IMG/VR virus record: IMGVR_UViG_3300009285_001845 | Span: 1 to 56,027 of that record | DNA: 56,027 nt | Direction: 5' to 3' (one strand) | Source of the DNA: a virus | In this document: positions 1-33,296 of the stretch, piece after piece | Numbering within the stretch: position 1 is the stretch's first letter | Layout: each line of letters opens with the position of its first letter | Program-made: the position numbers and the translations under genes | The notes under the pieces: model-generated | Told to the model about the DNA's origin: nothing | What the model saw: only the letters and a program-made list of their open reading frames with translations | Databases searched by the model: none

Positions 1-2303
1 GGTTGCTGCTGCATCGTGGTCAACCGTTCGACATTCATATCCAGGAATCGCCCCGCCACGTCCAACTGCCGTTCGAGCAGGAGCCGTCGGTCCGTGTTCT
101 GCTCTTGTACGTAGAGCTTCACGAGCTCCAGCCACGCCTTCAGCCGGTCGCTCTGTGCCCTGGCCTCATGGTCGAGCCGCTTGGTCTTGATGACCTCGTC
201 CTTTTCCTGCAGCGCCTGCATCGCGGCGTCGAGCCGGCCCTTCATCGCGGCCATCTCCGCCTTGACCTGCGGCGGAATCTTCTGGCCGTCCTCGCCCTCG
301 TCCTGATCCTGCAACTGCGGCGGCAGGGCCCGCATGGCCGCATCCGCGATGGCGTCGGCGTCTGGCACATCGATCTTCTTGATGAGATGTGGGGCCATTG
401 CGGCAGCCTGCGGCGGCGCGACCACTTTCATGACTTCAACCATCTGGCTGACGGACTCTTGCCGCCGAGAGCCGGGATCTGGACCCGCACTGACCTCGAC
501 ATCGAACTCCCCCACGCCGATGTCGAACACGCCCTCGACGCCTTTCGGGAGCTCGAAGGGTTTCGGTTGCCCGGTCTGCGGATCGCGCTCGAGGAACTCC
601 TCGCGGCGCGGGTCTTTGTCTTGGCCCGAGTAAACCAGCGCCTTCCAGGTCCGCTCTCCGTCGCCCATGACGCGGATGACCTGCGGGGCATCGTGCACAC
701 GGCGGATCAGTTCAATGAGCTGCTTCCCGGCACACGCGAGCGACAGACGGAGGTTGAACAGGTAGTGCGAGTTGGCATGCTCGTCCTGCCGCTGGCGGGC
801 GATGATCGCCGCCCGGGACTCCTGCGGGCCCCGTTCGCCCATCGAGGCGTCGTGATACCCGGCCGTCGATTTGAGATCCCGGTCCCCCTGCTGGACGGCC
901 ATGACGCTGGCCTCCATCGGCGGGGAGTAACTGTTGCGGATAGGTAACTGGGCAAACTTCCCATCGTCCATCGGCATGGGATCGACTTCGAGGAACGCGA
1001 CCGGCTCCTGATTCGCGTTCTCCCACGCACGGCGCTGCGCAGAGTTGGGGTCCCCGAACTGGCCCTTGTACCCGACAACCGGACTCTTATGGCCGAGCCC
1101 CATGTCCTCGGCGATGCCTGACACGCCCACGTTGTAGAACTTGGCCGCATCCTGCGCGTCACGGGTCACGCCGCGGAAGTCAATCTCGCCCGTGTCGGGA
1201 TTCTCGACCATCTCCCCGATGACGGGAATCAGCGCATGGCTGGTGCCTGGCCACGGGGTTTCTTCGAGGATCTCGGTCGGCGTGATGATGCGGTGCATCC
1301 ATTGTTTCTTGCGCACCGTGCGCTCGCGCTTGACGAGTTCCGGATTCTTCCGCCACCGTTTCACGACCTCGGCGATGGCCTCCGCTGAAATATCCATCGT
1401 CAGGTCCATCTGGGCCTGCTGGAGGTATTCCGCTTCCACCAACTTCTTGAACTCGTCCTCTTTGACAGAGCGGCCATCACCAAGTTCGAGCAGAACGTAC
1501 TCCTCTCGCTCGACGTTGTAGTAATTGGCGAGCCGGATCTTGCCGTTCGGAAACCAATCCGCGATGTGGCCGGTGTCGGTCGAGAAGTCGGTCGTACTGG
1601 GGTCAGGGGCGGGCTTCCCTGTGATCGCCTCGTAGACGTCAGGCTCAACGTCGGTCACATAGAAGACGTACTCGCACGAACTGAAGTCCGGTTCCTCGAC
1701 ACCGTTGGGGTCAAAGACGACCCGCCGCTGGTCGCGGACCGCCTTCATCCGGATGCGCTGACGGAAGCTCGTGTCGTCGGCCCATTCGGTGACAAGCCGG
1801 AAGAACGACAGTCCTTGCTCGGCTTGCTTGTCGCTCGCCGTCGCGTAGATATGTTCGGCGAAACTGTTCCGCTCGATGTTCCGAATTTCGCTCTGTAGGA
1901 TCTCCGCAATCTTCGGGTCGCCGCGGTCGTCGACAGCGGTGACCTTGATCCGGAGGTTCGCCCCGCGGGCCGTGTTGCTGACCATGCGGATAAAGCCGCG
2001 GGTCCGGTTGATGGTCAAGCAGGGGCGATGGTGGGCAGTCCGCTTCTGCCAAATTTCCTCGGGCCACTGGTAGGACTGCTTCCCCCAGGTGCCCATCGCG
2101 AACTCTTGATCGATCTTCGACCAGCGGTGGAAGAACTCGGACGCTAGGAGGCCGTTGCGGAATTGCTTGCGGGCCCGGGCGAGGATGCGGGCTTTTCGGC
2201 TGGCGTCGGTCTCCGTCTCTGATGGCGGCGGCGGCTCTGGCTTCTCGAGCTCGATGGTCGGAAAGACCGGCGGAGTCGGGGTGAGGTCAACTGCGCCAGC
2301 CAT
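1..2303 (-). CDS. P22-type portal protein (3' end beyond the window)
   Basis: Forms the ring at the capsid vertex through which DNA enters and leaves. About 767 codons are present and the frame runs off the left edge. The protein has an acidic/proline-rich N terminus, a segment with RTRGFIRMVSN near residue 95, DPNGVEEPDF near 200, a core with AGYHDASMGERGPQES near 480 (a typical P22-portal segment), and a long charged helical C-terminal region. The length already matches the P22 portal (about 725 residues), so little should be missing. The start ATG at 2303 has AGGAAGG about seven bases upstream. It lies in the usual order behind terS and terL, with small genes and endonucleases between. Confidence 0.9.
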   Translation of the reverse strand, partial: MAGAVDLTPTPPVFPTIELEKPEPPPPSETETDASRKARILARARKQFRNGLLASEFFHRWSKIDQEFAMGTWGKQSYQWPEEIWQKRTAHHRPCLTINRTRGFIRMVSNTARGANLRIKVTAVDDRGDPKIAEILQSEIRNIERNSFAEHIYATASDKQAEQGLSFFRLVTEWADDTSFRQRIRMKAVRDQRRVVFDPNGVEEPDFSSCEYVFYVTDVEPDVYEAITGKPAPDPSTTDFSTDTGHIADWFPNGKIRLANYYNVEREEYVLLELGDGRSVKEDEFKKLVEAEYLQQAQMDLTMDISAEAIAEVVKRWRKNPELVKRERTVRKKQWMHRIITPTEILEETPWPGTSHALIPVIGEMVENPDTGEIDFRGVTRDAQDAAKFYNVGVSGIAEDMGLGHKSPVVGYKGQFGDPNSAQRRAWENANQEPVAFLEVDPMPMDDGKFAQLPIRNSYSPPMEASVMAVQQGDRDLKSTAGYHDASMGERGPQESRAAIIARQRQDEHANSHYLFNLRLSLACAGKQLIELIRRVHDAPQVIRVMGDGERTWKALVYSGQDKDPRREEFLERDPQTGQPKPFELPKGVEGVFDIGVGEFDVEVSAGPDPGSRRQESVSQMVEVMKVVAPPQAAAMAPHLIKKIDVPDADAIADAAMRALPPQLQDQDEGEDGQKIPPQVKAEMAAMKGRLDAAMQALQEKDEVIKTKRLDHEARAQSDRLKAWLELVKLYVQEQNTDRRLLLERQLDVAGRFLDMNVERLTTMQQQ

Positions 2304-3906: not shown

Positions 3907-4374
3907 TCAATGCGGCCTGAACCGCGTGTGCTTGTCCCGATCGGCGATACTCTCGATGACGACCCCGCCGTCGTGTTGTGTCGTCGGCCCGTCGTGCCCG
4001 GTCGGCCCCTCGTAGCCGCTCCCGCGCAGGTCCTTGTCAGAGAGCTTCTTGGGGATGAACTTCGCGATGTCCTTCGGCCGCTCGGCCTCACGGAAGCGGA
4101 CAGGGAGGCTGACCGTAATCACGGCCAGGATCCATCGGAGTTCGTCCTCGGAAAATTTGATAGCGGGCTCGAACCTAGCGAAGTACTGCTTCCCGAGACG
4201 GATGAACTCCGCGTCGCCACGGCGCACCATTAGCCAGCGACAGTGGAGGTCGCTGGACGCGATCAACGCCTTGGCGGCGCTCACAATCCACTTCCATCTT
4301 GGCCTGCCTAACACGTACGTATTGCTGGTACGCAGGGGAATGTGCGGCATCAGGTCTGTCAATGAAGCCTTCAT
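3907..4374 (-). CDS. hypothetical protein
   Basis: Has 155 residues from the ATG at 4374, which has GGAGG eight bases upstream and overlaps the stop of the upstream HNH gene (ATGA). It contains a central Trp/Arg-rich helical region and a Gly-rich C-terminal stretch (GPTGHDGP). No family recognised. A longer start at 4389 is possible, but the ribosome binding site favours 4374. Confidence 0.55.
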   Translation of the reverse strand: MKASLTDLMPHIPLRTSNTYVLGRPRWKWIVSAAKALIASSDLHCRWLMVRRGDAEFIRLGKQYFARFEPAIKFSEDELRWILAVITVSLPVRFREAERPKDIAKFIPKKLSDKDLRGSGYEGPTGHDGPTTQHDGGVVIESIADRDKHTRFRPH

Positions 4375-5162
4375 GCCACGTGCCTCCATGCACGGCCGGA
4401 CAGGATGTTGTAGACGGTCCCGATCTTGACACCGTGATGCTCGGCAATTGTCTTCACGGCGATTCCGTTGCTGCGTGCTAGGCGGATTTCATGGACGGCG
4501 GCATCGGTCAGTTTCGCGTAGTGGTTGTGTTCTCCGCGTGGGCTAGGGGCCCTCCGTCCTTTCCGGATCATGTCGTCGACGTTGTCCTGGTGGGTACCAA
4601 GAAATAAATGCGCTGGATTGCAACAACTTGGGTGGTCGCACTGATGGCAGACAAGCCGATCAGCAGGGATTGAACCGTGGGTGAGCACCCAGATGAGCCT
4701 GGTAGCTCTGATTTCTGGGTGACCTGGAAGAACCCAGAGACGAACAAAGCCGTAGCCATACCGACCCGTTGTGGCGATCCAGGGCCAACACTCGTTTGGA
4801 GTTCGACGGTCTACTTTTGACCACAACGAGCGTTCGAGTTGCCCCTTGAAGTGGGTCCAGACACTCTCTTGAAGTTCTTGAATGCTCAATGCGCGCGGTC
4901 GCCCCCTCGGGTGAGATCGCTCGCGCGGAGGATCGTTCTTGGAGTGGCCGAAACGATTGGAATACCGCGGGAGAGACAACGCCGCTGTAATTCTGGCAAT
5001 GGCGTCAGGCGTGTGCCGTTCTCCCTTTCGTGGCATCAGGCTATGGCCTTCGTCGTTCGCAGCGGAATCTGCGGCAGGAGCGGTGTCTGCATGGGGAGGA
5101 GCCGCGCCTAGTGTGCCAACTTTCTCTTGGGCCGTCAAGATGTTCTCCGTTTTAATGGACAT
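4371..5162 (-). CDS. HNH homing-type endonuclease with C-terminal HTH
   Basis: Has 263 residues. The HNH_3-type core is clear: CWPW near residue 130, then TRLIWVLTHG, VCHQCDHPSCCNPAHLFLG with its Cys/His metal ligands, and NVDDM. A helix-turn-helix-like end (VKTIAEHHGVKIGTVYNILSG) should bind DNA. The first 40 residues are low-complexity and Ala-rich and may not belong to the enzyme; ATGs further in (for example near 5036) are possible starts. It overlaps the upstream LAGLIDADG gene by 28 bases. Such enzymes usually spread themselves; no phage role is implied. Confidence 0.85.
   Translation of the reverse strand: MSIKTENILTAQEKVGTLGAAPPHADTAPAADSAANDEGHSLMPRKGERHTPDAIARITAALSLPRYSNRFGHSKNDPPRERSHPRGRPRALSIQELQESVWTHFKGQLERSLWSKVDRRTPNECWPWIATTGRYGYGFVRLWVLPGHPEIRATRLIWVLTHGSIPADRLVCHQCDHPSCCNPAHLFLGTHQDNVDDMIRKGRRAPSPRGEHNHYAKLTDAAVHEIRLARSNGIAVKTIAEHHGVKIGTVYNILSGRAWRHVA
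5109..5138 (-). promoter_or_regulatory. copy of recurrent motif CCCAR-N6-GTTGGCAC
   Basis: On the minus strand this 30-base stretch matches the one before terS (8471-8500) at 26 of 30 positions, starting TTGAC and ending GTTGGCACACTA. Here it lies within the first codons of the HNH gene. Function unknown; a binding site or promoter is inferred only from recurrence. Confidence 0.35.
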
Positions 5163-5788
5163 GCCGGATCTTGGTAATTAGCAGAACATTGGCAGTGGTA
5201 CTTGGCCTTGTGAGTTCGAAACCCCTGAGGCTGAGTAGCCTTCCACTGATGGATGACCTCTCTGATTCTGGCTCGGCGTCTGGCTCCAAGCAATGTGTAT
5301 AGAGTAAACATCCAGCCTATGGCCTGGGGGCCTCTCACGTGAAGGGTGTATTGTGTCTTGTAGCCATGCCCATTATCTGTTCCGGCTCTTGCGTACACTG
5401 ACTGAGCCCCAAACAATTGGGCTGCCTTTCGAACAACATCTTCATCTGTCATTGACAGGGCGATAATCACGCCTGCATTTTTCGGAAAACAGCCTTCACC
5501 TTCTACTAGCCCGGCAAGCCAACAGATTTCTTTCAGTGTCCGATGGCTGGTCCTAGGCGATGGTTGTAATTGGTACTTTGTCTTATACCGTTCTAGAGGA
5601 GGACAGCCCGGCAGTCTTCGAATATTGTAACGGCCGGTAATATATCGAACACCGTCTAAAAATTCGACCAAGACGCTGTTCATTTTGCCGAAGACAATCG
5701 GGCGGCAGTGTTCGCCAAAGCGTTCTGGGAGAAACTTTCTGACGCGCCAGTAGTGTTGAGGGCGAGTGGTAGGATTTGATTTAGCCAT
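5135..5788 (-). CDS. LAGLIDADG-type homing endonuclease
   Basis: Has 217 residues. WLAGLVEGEGCF near residue 90 is a LAGLIDADG helix with its acidic catalytic residue. It is followed by the expected beta-strand pattern (IIALSMTDEDVVRKAA, YTLHVRGPQAIGWM) and TLLGARRRARI. Only one LAGLIDADG motif is evident, so it probably acts as a dimer. This stretch looks poorer in G+C than neighbouring phage genes, which suggests recent arrival. It overlaps the following HNH gene and lies just downstream of the terL nuclease fragment. Confidence 0.82.
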   Translation of the reverse strand: MAKSNPTTRPQHYWRVRKFLPERFGEHCRPIVFGKMNSVLVEFLDGVRYITGRYNIRRLPGCPPLERYKTKYQLQPSPRTSHRTLKEICWLAGLVEGEGCFPKNAGVIIALSMTDEDVVRKAAQLFGAQSVYARAGTDNGHGYKTQYTLHVRGPQAIGWMFTLYTLLGARRRARIREVIHQWKATQPQGFRTHKAKYHCQCSANYQDPACPLKRRTS

Positions 5789-5874: not shown

Positions 5875-6678
5875 TCACGCCCACATCCACCCGTCGCTCG
5901 ACCCGTCGCCGCGCCCCCGGGTGAACCGGTCGAACGGATCTTTCTTGGTGTCCTGCCGTTGCGCGTACGTCGCCTCGGCTTCCGTCTTGAACTCGTTCAC
6001 GGGGAACATCTCGAGATACCGCGTCGGGTCGAGGCAGTGGTCGTTGGTCTTCACGATGCGCCCTTGCTCGTCCCGGTGATAGAGCCGGTATTCCTCAAAC
6101 CAGGGCTCGCAGCTGGCGAAGACCTTGAGCTTGCCCGTGCTCAGCGAGACCCAGGTTTTTTGCAGCCCGGTCTCGACCGCTTTATTCGCAAGTCGAAGCG
6201 TGAGCCCGAGCCCGCGATAAATCTTCAGGAACTGCTGGCCGTCGTACTTGTTAATGTCGGAGCAATCCCCGACACCAGGGATCCACGCGCCGCGTGCCTT
6301 GATCGCCTCCGCATGAATTGGTGGCTCCGCTTGGCTCCGCTTGTAGCAGGCATACAGATATCGAATGTTCGTCTCCCGATCGAGCGCCTCCCACACTGCG
6401 CCAAACCAGTTCCATCCGTGATCGAGCGAGAACGCCCGCGGCCAGTGGGCTGGGATTGGGAAGTCCGCAACCTTGATGTCTACTTCTGGGATTGGAAAAA
6501 TAGATCCCGATCCAAGTGCTGGGATTCCTTTCGACCTAGCGTCCCGCTGGTACGGAGGAATCGAATCCCAGAGCTCCTTCTTCACCTCGTCTGAGAGATG
6601 GCTACAGTTGTCCCAAGTTGCGAAGGTCACATGTTTCGACATAGACGTTCGGCGTCCGCGCGACGCTTGAGTAACCAC
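5875..6678 (-). CDS. terminase large subunit, C-terminal nuclease part
   Basis: Carries the RNase H-like headful nuclease of a P22-type terminase. Visible pieces are HLSDEVKKELWDSIP, RSKGIPALGSGSIFP, the first catalytic Asp in AFSLDHGWNW, the central CSDINKYDG and the final NDHCLDPTRY. The natural protein would continue from the ATPase half at 7267-7995, but an HNH gene lies between and the halves are in separate reading frames. Translation must start anew, perhaps at ATG 6642 (MSKHVTFATW) inside the 3' end of the HNH gene; no strong ribosome binding site is seen. About 255 plus 242 residues add up to a normal large subunit. Confidence 0.88.
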   Translation of the reverse strand: MVTQASRGRRTSMSKHVTFATWDNCSHLSDEVKKELWDSIPPYQRDARSKGIPALGSGSIFPIPEVDIKVADFPIPAHWPRAFSLDHGWNWFGAVWEALDRETNIRYLYACYKRSQAEPPIHAEAIKARGAWIPGVGDCSDINKYDGQQFLKIYRGLGLTLRLANKAVETGLQKTWVSLSTGKLKVFASCEPWFEEYRLYHRDEQGRIVKTNDHCLDPTRYLEMFPVNEFKTEAEATYAQRQDTKKDPFDRFTRGRGDGSSDGWMWA

Positions 6679-7280
6679 ACGAGTAACGGGGTGTCGTTCT
6701 TAGACGCATTGTTGCTAAACGATGTCACGCATAAGTTATCGAGAACGTGCGCGCCGCCACCCGAGAGAGGTACTACATGGTCGACAGTTGGTTTATCAAT
6801 CAAGTCTCCAGTGTAAGCATCAAGGTACTTATGCCCCACCCTGGATAACTCTAGGACTTGATGATAGAGGTTTGTTTGTGGTTCGGATGCAATAGCATCG
6901 AGCCGCGTATTCCGCCTAAACCAACTCTCGCGTTTCCATGCTGTGGACTTTCGAGGGTGTGTAGCCCTGTACGTCTGTGCGTATATACTGATGTGTTTTC
7001 TGTTCGCGGCCTGCCATTCCCGATTCCATTGACGTTGTTTCGCTTGAAAGACGTCTCCGCCATTACGCCTTCGGGCGTTTTGGTAATTCGCGCAACATCT
7101 CTTGCAGCGCGAGTGCAGAATAACGCTGCGCTTGCCTTGTTTTGTGGTGTAGGAATACCGCGAGAACTGCGATGCCGGTTTGATGTCCTTGCAATCGCTG
7201 CATCTCTTAGTAGCAACACGATCTGCCTTGGGGTTTGCGACCAACTCTTTGAGTTTGTGAGATTGCCTACTCCGTGGCAT
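6627..7280 (-). CDS. HNH endonuclease inserted in terL
   Basis: Has 217 residues: a zinc-ribbon N terminus (CSDCKDIKPASQF, later CKRCC), a basic middle and a typical HNH at about 165-200 (YTGDLIDKPTVDHVVP, then LDNLCVTSFSNNASKND). The gene exactly fills the gap between the two terL parts. Its ATG lies inside the last codons of the ATPase fragment and its stop inside the first codons of the nuclease fragment. Almost no extra sequence is left, so a group I intron core would not fit. The protein is not in frame with terL, so it is not an intein. Confidence 0.87.
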   Translation of the reverse strand: MPRSRQSHKLKELVANPKADRVATKRCSDCKDIKPASQFSRYSYTTKQGKRSVILHSRCKRCCANYQNARRRNGGDVFQAKQRQWNREWQAANRKHISIYAQTYRATHPRKSTAWKRESWFRRNTRLDAIASEPQTNLYHQVLELSRVGHKYLDAYTGDLIDKPTVDHVVPLSGGGAHVLDNLCVTSFSNNASKNDTPLLVWLLKRRADAERLCRNM

Positions 7281-7995
7281 GTGACGCCTGCCCTCCAGGC
7301 ATGAACGACAGTATAAACGGAGTGAGTCCCTGTAAAGGCGTCAGTGTGCAGAAAATAATTCCGTCGCAAGACATCGTTCTGACGAGTGCCTCTGTGTAGA
7401 TCGGGAAATCGGGCTCCTCGTCCATCCAGATGACTTCTTGCGCCGTCCCTTGGAAGGCTTCACGGCCCTCCATGTAGCTCCGGAAGCCGAGCACTGAATG
7501 TCCGCCGGTCGTATGGCGGACCCAGAGGGCTTCGATGGCGTCAGGCGTGCCTTGTTTTGCGGTGCGATGAATCAGGGTTTCAGGCGGAATCATGCCAGTG
7601 CCGTAGGCTCCAGGAGGTCCCACCAGTTTCTCTTGGACGATATCCCGTGTGGTGCGGGCGGTTTCACCGCACGCCCATGCTCGGACAGGTTGCGAAAATC
7701 GTCGTCCTTCCCACCACGGCGGATACCCGCCCGTGAGATGCACGGTCATCTCATAACTGCCAGCGGTTGACTTCCCAACCCGATTTCCGGCGATGAAAGC
7801 ACGTTCTCGGTGCTCCGCGCCAGCCGCGAAGAACTCGACGTGCTTCGGGTAGAGCTCGCGCCGGAACGGACCGTCGTCGGGGAAGATGGTCTGAAAGCGG
7901 CCGCCTTTGCGGCGTTCAAGCTCGGTCAGGATGGCGTTGCGGGCCGCTGCAGCCGCAGCGAGGGTGTCGGCGTGCTGCTCGAGGCCGCTGGTCAC
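7267..7995 (-). CDS. terminase large subunit, N-terminal ATPase part
   Basis: Has 242 residues with the complete packaging ATPase: Walker A GNRVGKST near 71, an adenine/arginine region around ACGETARTT, Walker B VIWMDEEP near 190 and the coupling motif CTLTPLQGLT. The frame stops after FMPGG plus a few residues, where an intact relative would run on into the nuclease domain. The GTG start overlaps the terS stop. The break lies at the inter-domain linker, so this half could fold alone. Whether the two polypeptides reassemble cannot be told from sequence. Confidence 0.9.
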   Translation of the reverse strand: MTSGLEQHADTLAAAAAARNAILTELERRKGGRFQTIFPDDGPFRRELYPKHVEFFAAGAEHRERAFIAGNRVGKSTAGSYEMTVHLTGGYPPWWEGRRFSQPVRAWACGETARTTRDIVQEKLVGPPGAYGTGMIPPETLIHRTAKQGTPDAIEALWVRHTTGGHSVLGFRSYMEGREAFQGTAQEVIWMDEEPDFPIYTEALVRTMSCDGIIFCTLTPLQGLTPFILSFMPGGQASHATE

Positions 7996-8465
7996 GGCGT
8001 CGGTGTCTTACCGGCCAATAGGTTCTGCACCATCTCGGCGTGTTTGAGGGCCTGCTCGAGGTCCTCCGTGCTCATCTTCCCGAGCGTGGCTGGGTCGAGG
8101 TTCCACTGCGGTGGTGGCGGTTGATCTTTTGTGAGCCCGAGATACTTCGCCAGCAACTCCAGCATTCGCCCTTTATCGGCGTGCTTCGGCGCGTCTGCCG
8201 GTGTCGCGAAAGCGACGACGGCGGCTTCCTGCAGCACGCGCTCAGTGGTGATGTCGATTTTCTTGATGATCTGGGCTTGGGCTTTTTGGATGATGGCTTG
8301 GACATCCGGATGCTTCAGGAGCTTGCCGGCATTTACCTGGGCGCCGTTACCAGAGGCGGCGTAACCAGCGCGCTTATAGGCCGCGGTGGCGTTCCGGTCT
8401 TTCAACCACTCGTGCGCGAAGCGTTCGCGCTTGATCTTCGCGGCGGTGGTGCTGGCCTTATACAC
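7992..8465 (-). CDS. terminase small subunit
   Basis: Has 157 residues from a GTG at 8465. The N-terminal DNA-binding part has the Terminase_2 pattern: FAHEWLKDRNATAAYKRAGY, then NAGKLLKHPDVQAIIQ. A helical oligomerisation region follows, then a tail with LGLTKDQ and a Gln/Leu-rich end. It binds the pac site and hands DNA to the large subunit. The stop overlaps the terL start. A copy of the CCCAR-N6-GTTGGCAC motif lies just upstream. Confidence 0.88.
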   Translation of the reverse strand: MYKASTTAAKIKRERFAHEWLKDRNATAAYKRAGYAASGNGAQVNAGKLLKHPDVQAIIQKAQAQIIKKIDITTERVLQEAAVVAFATPADAPKHADKGRMLELLAKYLGLTKDQPPPPQWNLDPATLGKMSTEDLEQALKHAEMVQNLLAGKTPTP

Positions 8466-32908: not shown

Positions 32909-32984
32909 GCCACCGTAGCTCAACTGGCAGAGCAGCCCTTTCGTAATGGGACGGTTGCGGGTTCGATTCCTGTCGGTGGCTCCA
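32909..32984 (+). tRNA. tRNA-Thr (anticodon CGT)
   Basis: Acceptor GCCACCG pairs with CGGTGGC; D-arm GCTC/GAGC; T-arm GCGGG TTCGATT CCTGT; encoded CCA. The anticodon loop TTCGTAA has T33. The anticodon stem GCCCT/TGGGA has only three good pairs, with mismatches at both ends, which is weak for a working tRNA. Confidence 0.85.
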
Positions 32985-33048
32985 CTCCCTCACTAACTCC
33001 CAGTCGATCCTCATACGCACGACCGCGCTCGTAAAGAGCGCACCGCGC

Positions 33049-33133
33049 GGAGGGTTGTAGCGGAATTGGTATCGCCCCTGTCCCGAAAACAGACGCCTTC
33101 ACAGGCATAGAGGTTCGAATCCTCTACCCTCCG
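33049..33133 (+). tRNA. tRNA with long variable arm, probably Ser (anticodon CGA)
   Basis: Acceptor GGAGGGT/ACCCTCC; a D-arm with GCG/CGC; anticodon stem CTGT/ACAG around loop CCCGAAA; variable stem GCCT/AGGC; T-arm AGAGG TTCGAAT CCTCT. No CCA is encoded. Position 33 is C, not U. The D-arm looks Leu-like, so the identity is less sure than the fold. Confidence 0.75.
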
Positions 33134-33140
33134 CCCATCT

Positions 33141-33217
33141 TGGGATGTAGCCGAGTCTGGCAAGGCGCTCGCCCTGGGAGCGAGAGACCGCTGGTTCGAA
33201 TCCAGCCATCCCAACCA
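33141..33217 (+). tRNA. tRNA-Pro (anticodon TGG)
   Basis: Acceptor TGGGATG/CATCCCA, anticodon stem CTCGC/GCGAG around loop CCTGGGA (anticodon TGG, G37 as usual for Pro), T-arm GCTGG TTCGAAT CCAGC and encoded CCA. Position 33 is C. Confidence 0.88.
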
Positions 33218-33219
33218 TC

Positions 33220-33296
33220 GGGCCACGTAGCTCAATTGGTAGAGCGTCCGCCCCGCAAGCGGAAGGTTGCGAGTTCAACTCTCGCCTGGTCCACCA
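33220..33296 (+). tRNA. tRNA-Ala (anticodon CGC)
   Basis: Acceptor GGGCCA pairs with TGGTCC (one G-U; bases 7 and 66 are unpaired). D-arm GCTC/GAGC; anticodon stem TCCGC/GCGGA around CCCGCAA; T-arm GCGAG TTCAACT CTCGC; encoded CCA. Position 33 is C again. Confidence 0.83.

Follow-up and report, generated by a model that had tools for sequence, protein, structure and literature searches.

A large terminase gene in two pieces, divided recurrently at one point in related phages

Described phage genes in pieces include nrdA of Aeh1, which is split by mobE, gene 43 of phage 25 (43A/43B) and topoisomerase genes 60/39 of T4; reassembly of the pieces into an active enzyme has been shown for nrdA and gene 43, and is probable for the T4 topoisomerase (PMC2988022). 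In the Jug phages it is the large terminase gene (terL) that is split, there by group I introns that are spliced (PMC12363816). For mitochondrial cox2 of bilaterians, an insertion is reported to have divided an essential gene into two that complement each other (PMC5374615). In packaging models for T4, Sf6 and D6E, it is the lid of the large terminase that couples ATP hydrolysis to the rest of the motor, all in a single chain (PMC5727402).

Here a terL locus is analyzed within a 56,027-nucleotide stretch of viral DNA (termed here the window). A preliminary description had suggested that an HNH gene has divided this terL into two genes working as two polypeptides, with Aeh1 nrdA as the precedent; that precedent is valid (PMC2988022). 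A search of the open-access literature found no two-gene or split large terminase without introns.

The terminase locus and the position of the break

Table 1. Genes at and around the terminase locus of the window
Feature	Coordinates	Strand	Remarks
terS (small terminase subunit)	7992..8465	-	Terminase_2, E 5.7e-20; 4 nt overlap with terL-N
terL-N	7267..7995	-	ATPase core of large terminase: Walker A, Walker B, motif III
HNH / endonuclease VII-like gene	6627..7280	-	Occupies the seam between the terL halves
terL-C	5875..6642	-	Final strand of the ATPase core, followed by lid and RNase H-like nuclease
LAGLIDADG-like endonuclease gene	5135..5788	-	3' of terL-C
Second HNH endonuclease gene	4371..5162	-	Downstream of terL-C
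Putative portal-protein-like ORF	3..2303	-	Open at window edge; identity from position and resemblance

Along the minus strand the genes are ordered terS, terL-N, HNH, terL-C, LAGLIDADG-like, second HNH and, further on, the portal-like ORF (Table 1). Several features of a large terminase of the Terminase_6 type are found together, namely an ATPase core, an RNase H-like nuclease, an adjoining terS and a nearby portal-like ORF, but the ATPase and the nuclease are not on one polypeptide; stops occur in all frames between the halves. The upstream half (terL-N) begins with GTG and encodes 242 residues, among them Walker A (AGNRVGKS), Walker B with the catalytic Glu (VIWMDEE) and motif III (TLTP). 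It matches Terminase_6N (E 1.5e-12) and also PHROG 31467, which is labeled 'unknown function' (E 4e-62). The Walker A/B half reported earlier is a real ORF carrying its motifs. The downstream half (terL-C, 255 residues) matches Terminase_6C (E 8e-9), aligns with the P22 and D6E TerL proteins and retains the conserved nuclease Asp residues. The RNase H-like half had been placed at 5875-6678; the ORF itself stands, but its start was moved from the frame-opening GTG at 6678 to the ATG at 6642, nine codons before a conserved Trp, 6642 being both the onset of homology and the start point in split relatives.

The seam HNH gene (217 residues; PHROG 1035, endonuclease VII family, E 1.4e-22) fills the gap and overlaps both halves, as had been noted, by 14 nt with terL-N and by 16 nt with terL-C; its strong Shine-Dalgarno sequence, GGAGG, sits within terL-N codons. 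NCBIfam terL models matched neither half, and a PDB sequence search with a profile of the N-terminal half gave no match. A second terL, which the preliminary description had named as evidence against its reading, is absent from the 56,027-bp record (which is linear and may be a fragment). Three endonuclease genes are crowded at this locus, the seam HNH gene and, in tandem, the LAGLIDADG-like and second HNH genes; elsewhere in the window, at 32909-33296, lies a cluster of four tRNA genes (Thr, Ser, Pro, Ala).

An intein had earlier been excluded for want of a shared frame. The two terL ORFs do in fact share a frame, their starts being 1317 = 3 x 439 nt apart; the exclusion nevertheless holds, because this common frame holds many stops between the halves and the HNH gene lies in a different one. 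The absence of a group I intron is borne out: Rfam yielded no intron model match at the gathering threshold in the window or in 19 locus records (the window among them), nor in the seam at a lax threshold, and the window insert consists almost wholly of HNH coding sequence. An endonuclease ORF lies between the halves, with no catalytic core of a group I or group II intron detectable. The intact, endonuclease-free relatives for which a search had been proposed also exist: relative L001 is intact without an endonuclease at the site, and L071 is the intact sister of the HNH-bearing L052.

The break lies inside the ATPase domain, about 12 residues past motif III, and not at the domain linker where it had been thought to fall. 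The first piece is the ATPase core minus its last strand; the second is this last strand together with the lid and the nuclease. Thus the Terminase_6N ATPase profile spans the break, with positions 2-146 of its 215 in terL-N and 161-212 in terL-C. In the structure that AlphaFold2 predicts for L001, an intact relative (mean pLDDT 91), the loop corresponding to the seam (residues about 212-221) lies within the ATPase domain (residues 11-263). It follows the motif III strand and a short helix and precedes strand 223-227 and the two lid helices; this loop is the least confident part of the domain, and the strand that follows is confident. Residues 11-263 of the model superimpose on the P74-26 TerL ATPase domain (Z 20.7, rmsd 2.5 over 210 residues) and residues 261-444 on the P22 nuclease (Z 25.2, rmsd 2.1 over 183). 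Moreover, the alignment of terL-C with D6E TerL begins at residue 200, and the lid-to-nuclease linker of D6E TerL is at 230-241 (PMC5727402); hence the break is not at the ATPase/nuclease linker. When the window terL-C was modeled alone with AlphaFold2, its first strand remained unformed (pLDDT 54 over the first ten residues), the simplest reading of which is that this strand would fold only on joining the terL-N sheet.

Recurrence of the split and the genes within the seam

The preliminary description had treated the split as one event. The same point is split in 68 of 186 non-redundant relatives (the window and 67 further copies), a proportion (37%) that is no census, the loci having been chosen by similarity to alignments that contain split members. 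These 186, all with both halves, come from viral contigs, phage records and genome contigs; one of them (L155) was counted as intact, its insertion being elsewhere than in the seam. Among genome contigs with both halves, 22 of 40 are split, and split copies occur in isolates of Azospirillum agricola, Acetobacter musti LMG 30640, Sphingomonas melonis, Vibrio galatheae, Neptunomonas marina, Eilatimonas milleporae DSM 25217 and Halomonas. A closed 54,159-bp phage-plasmid of Endozoicomonas gorgoniicola carries a capsid gene, terS, and terL-N and terL-C 10 nt apart (annotated as 'terminase family protein' and 'hypothetical protein', respectively), and no other terL. Of seven host genomes tested, four (Vibrio galatheae, Neptunomonas, Litchfieldella and Eilatimonas) contain just one Terminase_6N match, and terL is also split in a circular 40-kb metagenomic phage genome (MW202785); among the records inspected, no cultured lytic phage had a split copy. 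L037/L038, to which the window is most closely related, has the split but no HNH gene in it. The split is, then, a recurrent architecture, present in dozens of phages and prophages, and not the accident of a single phage.

The start of terL-C is fixed. Counting back from the conserved Trp (MSKxxVxATW), an ATG or GTG stands at precisely the ninth codon in 33 of 47 split copies versus 1 of 99 intact ones; nearly all of the remaining split copies start at codon -14 (MPEISxSKYLV), and one or the other position is used in all 22 of the genome cases. The downstream half is a genuine gene. The halves are adjacent or overlapping in 35 split pairs, of which 18 overlap by exactly 4 nt (ATGA, GTGA or TTGA), the arrangement of translational coupling; start-stop distances in adjacent pairs range from -23 to +28 nt in varying frames, the halves being mostly in different ones. 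In another 33 pairs, 68 nt to 9.3 kb of varied genes lie between the halves. Predicted ribosome pairing upstream of the terL-C start is stronger in all split copies than at the matching point in intact ones (one-sided p 0.0013), with medians of -6.0 kcal/mol for adjacent pairs, -4.1 for separated pairs and -3.5 for intact copies. The site in the window is weak (-3.2), and coupling of terL-C to translation of the HNH gene is therefore the likely arrangement there.

Both halves are maintained. Hardly any variation is seen in the Walker and motif III residues, whether the copy is split or intact, and the nuclease Asp residues are retained in at least 60 of 68 split copies; the catalytic residues, as had been claimed for the window, are thus intact in the window and also in its split relatives. 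Purifying selection persists in each half: dN/dS is about 0.07-0.28 in those split pairs whose dS is usable, a measure that comes from relatives, the nearest relative of the window being too distant for the test. The window terL sits on a long branch and shares with L037 a common deletion and an altered motif near the second nuclease Asp (5878-6642; GVGDxxxINxYDG versus GxIDPASxGRSQxDG); the window copy could be decaying, though its frames are open.

Split and intact copies are interleaved. There are 22 changes between the two states on a tree of 186 rows, and 20 on a 94-row IQ-TREE tree, eight being forced by strongly supported branches in each case; a single clade of split copies is rejected with p-AU 4e-6 (for 31 rows picked for known interleaving, a set not named beforehand). 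On the evidence of these trees, a single origin of the split is rejected. Nor does the HNH gene alone explain it, as had been assumed: L037 and L038 are split without one, and in roughly half of the split copies the two halves are not parted by any gene. Where the halves are separated, the seam contains small ORFs, a resolvase, a Dam methylase, or Tad1/Acb2-like and Tad2-like anti-defense genes, and most of these other seams hold no recognizable endonuclease; the terL seam looks like a cargo site. In one seam (L008) an AP2-like tail of a former endonuclease seems to be left, as judged by eye and without a library match. In L052 an endonuclease VII-type gene occupies the loop that is uninterrupted in its sister, and the terL-C start codon lies within the 3' end of this gene, likewise in the window. 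HNH genes are best explained as one of the ways in which the split arises, and also as one of several passengers in the seam. Because the sister L037/L038 is split without it, the HNH gene in the window lineage may be a later arrival than the split.

The kin of the window HNH gene were found only within other terL seams. The HNH genes in seams L205 and L221 are related to it at 45 and 30% identity; a 45% match lies at this seam in an isolate genome of Roseomonas. A pattern search of viral contigs revealed no close relatives. In L221 the HNH gene (7399-7992) begins MPAITESRYLVQA and terL-C (starting at 7992) begins MPAITASRYLVQA: 12 of 13 residues are identical, and seven consecutive codons are all synonymously changed. 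Weaker HNH copies of the terL-C head occur in L205 and L016, and a copy like that of L221 is not detectable in the window HNH gene. These sequences suggest that HNH genes of this kind enter terL-C a few codons in from its start, take over that start and furnish a recoded replacement. Apparent inteins were also seen in this group, at Walker A (GKC) of terL in L027 (2083-3609) and at the last nuclease Asp motif of terL-C in L016 (7551-8690).

A probable two-chain terminase and its alternatives

The reading preferred here, with a probability of roughly 0.85, is that the locus encodes a translationally coupled large terminase made as two polypeptides that reassemble non-covalently. That this terminase works as two polypeptides, as first proposed, is most likely on grounds of recurrence, fixed start and selection in relatives. 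Ribosomes would complete terL-N and restart on the overlapping downstream gene, the HNH gene in the window and terL-C directly in many relatives. A point against this is that terL-C of the window, with its weak ribosome site, would come third in the order of translation. By its first strand terL-C would then insert into the terL-N sheet, docking the two proteins and rebuilding one terminase subunit without a covalent link. As to how such splits arise, HNH-type endonuclease genes probably make some of them by inserting in a variable surface loop and supplying the terL-C start codon; the endonuclease may later decay or give way to other genes, the split remaining.

Several other explanations were weighed against this one. 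That the HNH insertion killed terL, leaving its pieces as remnants of a defective genome, is improbable: the window is indeed a metagenomic contig with a long-branch terL, and three endonuclease genes crowd the locus, but all frames are open, the catalytic residues are intact, the sister L037/L038 is likewise split, split copies elsewhere have dN/dS below 0.3 in both halves, and the closed phage-plasmid carries a split copy only. Joining of the halves in the transcript by a self-splicing intron, degenerate or of unknown type, that houses the HNH gene would have a parallel in the Jug phages, for which RNA reads confirm that the group I introns splitting terL are spliced (PMC12363816). Yet neither the window nor the other locus records searched with Rfam match any intron model, the window insert is nearly all HNH coding sequence, the 35 adjacent or overlapping pairs leave no room for an intron and others contain several genes, and the halves of most adjacent pairs are in different frames, all of which makes such splicing highly improbable.

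Joining at the protein level is equally hard to credit. A small frameshift in adjacent pairs would yield a fusion protein, and insertions resembling inteins are present in terL genes of this group (in terL-C of L016 and at Walker A of L027); but programmed frameshifting or ribosome hopping would have to cope with start-stop distances from -23 to +28 nt in differing frames, and with the 33 pairs that are farther apart, often by whole genes. Because these 33 are 0.07-9.3 kb apart, neither a splice nor a frameshift can be general; as for a split intein, the halves end and begin within a few residues of homology, leaving no space for one. Sequencing or assembly frameshift errors might be suspected, many pairs being metagenomic with overlaps of a few bases, but they can practically be dismissed as the source of the split copies: the start codon stands at one fixed position in split and not in intact copies, the split is seen in isolate genomes and a complete plasmid, and in nearly half of the pairs the two pieces stand 68 nt to 9.3 kb apart. 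A more far-reaching and unlikely reading is that, in a large group of phages, the ATPase core and the lid-nuclease are separate, exchangeable subunits, the nuclease differing from the ATPase ring in stoichiometry or timing; some cores might lack a lid-nuclease, for example, or the nuclease might be swapped between cutting and pumping.

Implications and comparison with known systems

Nature appears to have repeatedly cut the chain between core and lid, with both parts under selection, which suggests that a packaging machine invariably taken for a single chain can work as two proteins. The role of the covalent link between core and lid thus becomes directly testable, and two-part terminases are offered for reconstitution. 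A practical consequence concerns annotation: with terL split, automatic procedures leave one half as a 'hypothetical protein' or as of 'unknown function' (as in PHROG 31467). That family matches only the N-terminal half of intact TerL, and was probably built from split terL-N proteins. Surveys that rely on terL, a standard marker for phages, will miss split copies or count them twice.

The intact TerL proteins of EBPR podovirus 1, PaP3, phiEco32 and P22 belong to the same family, and both window halves align to a single protein in each; unlike these single-chain enzymes, the window TerL is in two. The split cox2 of mitochondria concerns an organelle and a different enzyme, whereas here the divided protein is a packaging motor. 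As in the Jug phages, terL is in pieces with endonuclease genes nearby, but the Jug introns are spliced, whereas here no intron is detectable and, in half of the pairs, the pieces lie too close together to accommodate one. There is a likeness to Aeh1 nrdA, phage 25 and T4, in that a free-standing endonuclease gene accompanies two halves of an essential phage gene without splicing. The differences from these are that the gene is the large terminase, that one point has been split recurrently across many phages, and that the terL splits mostly lack an endonuclease and persist while the intervening genes change. Functional phage genes in pieces are already known; an unspliced, two-gene large terminase that recurs at one point did not turn up in the open-access literature searched.
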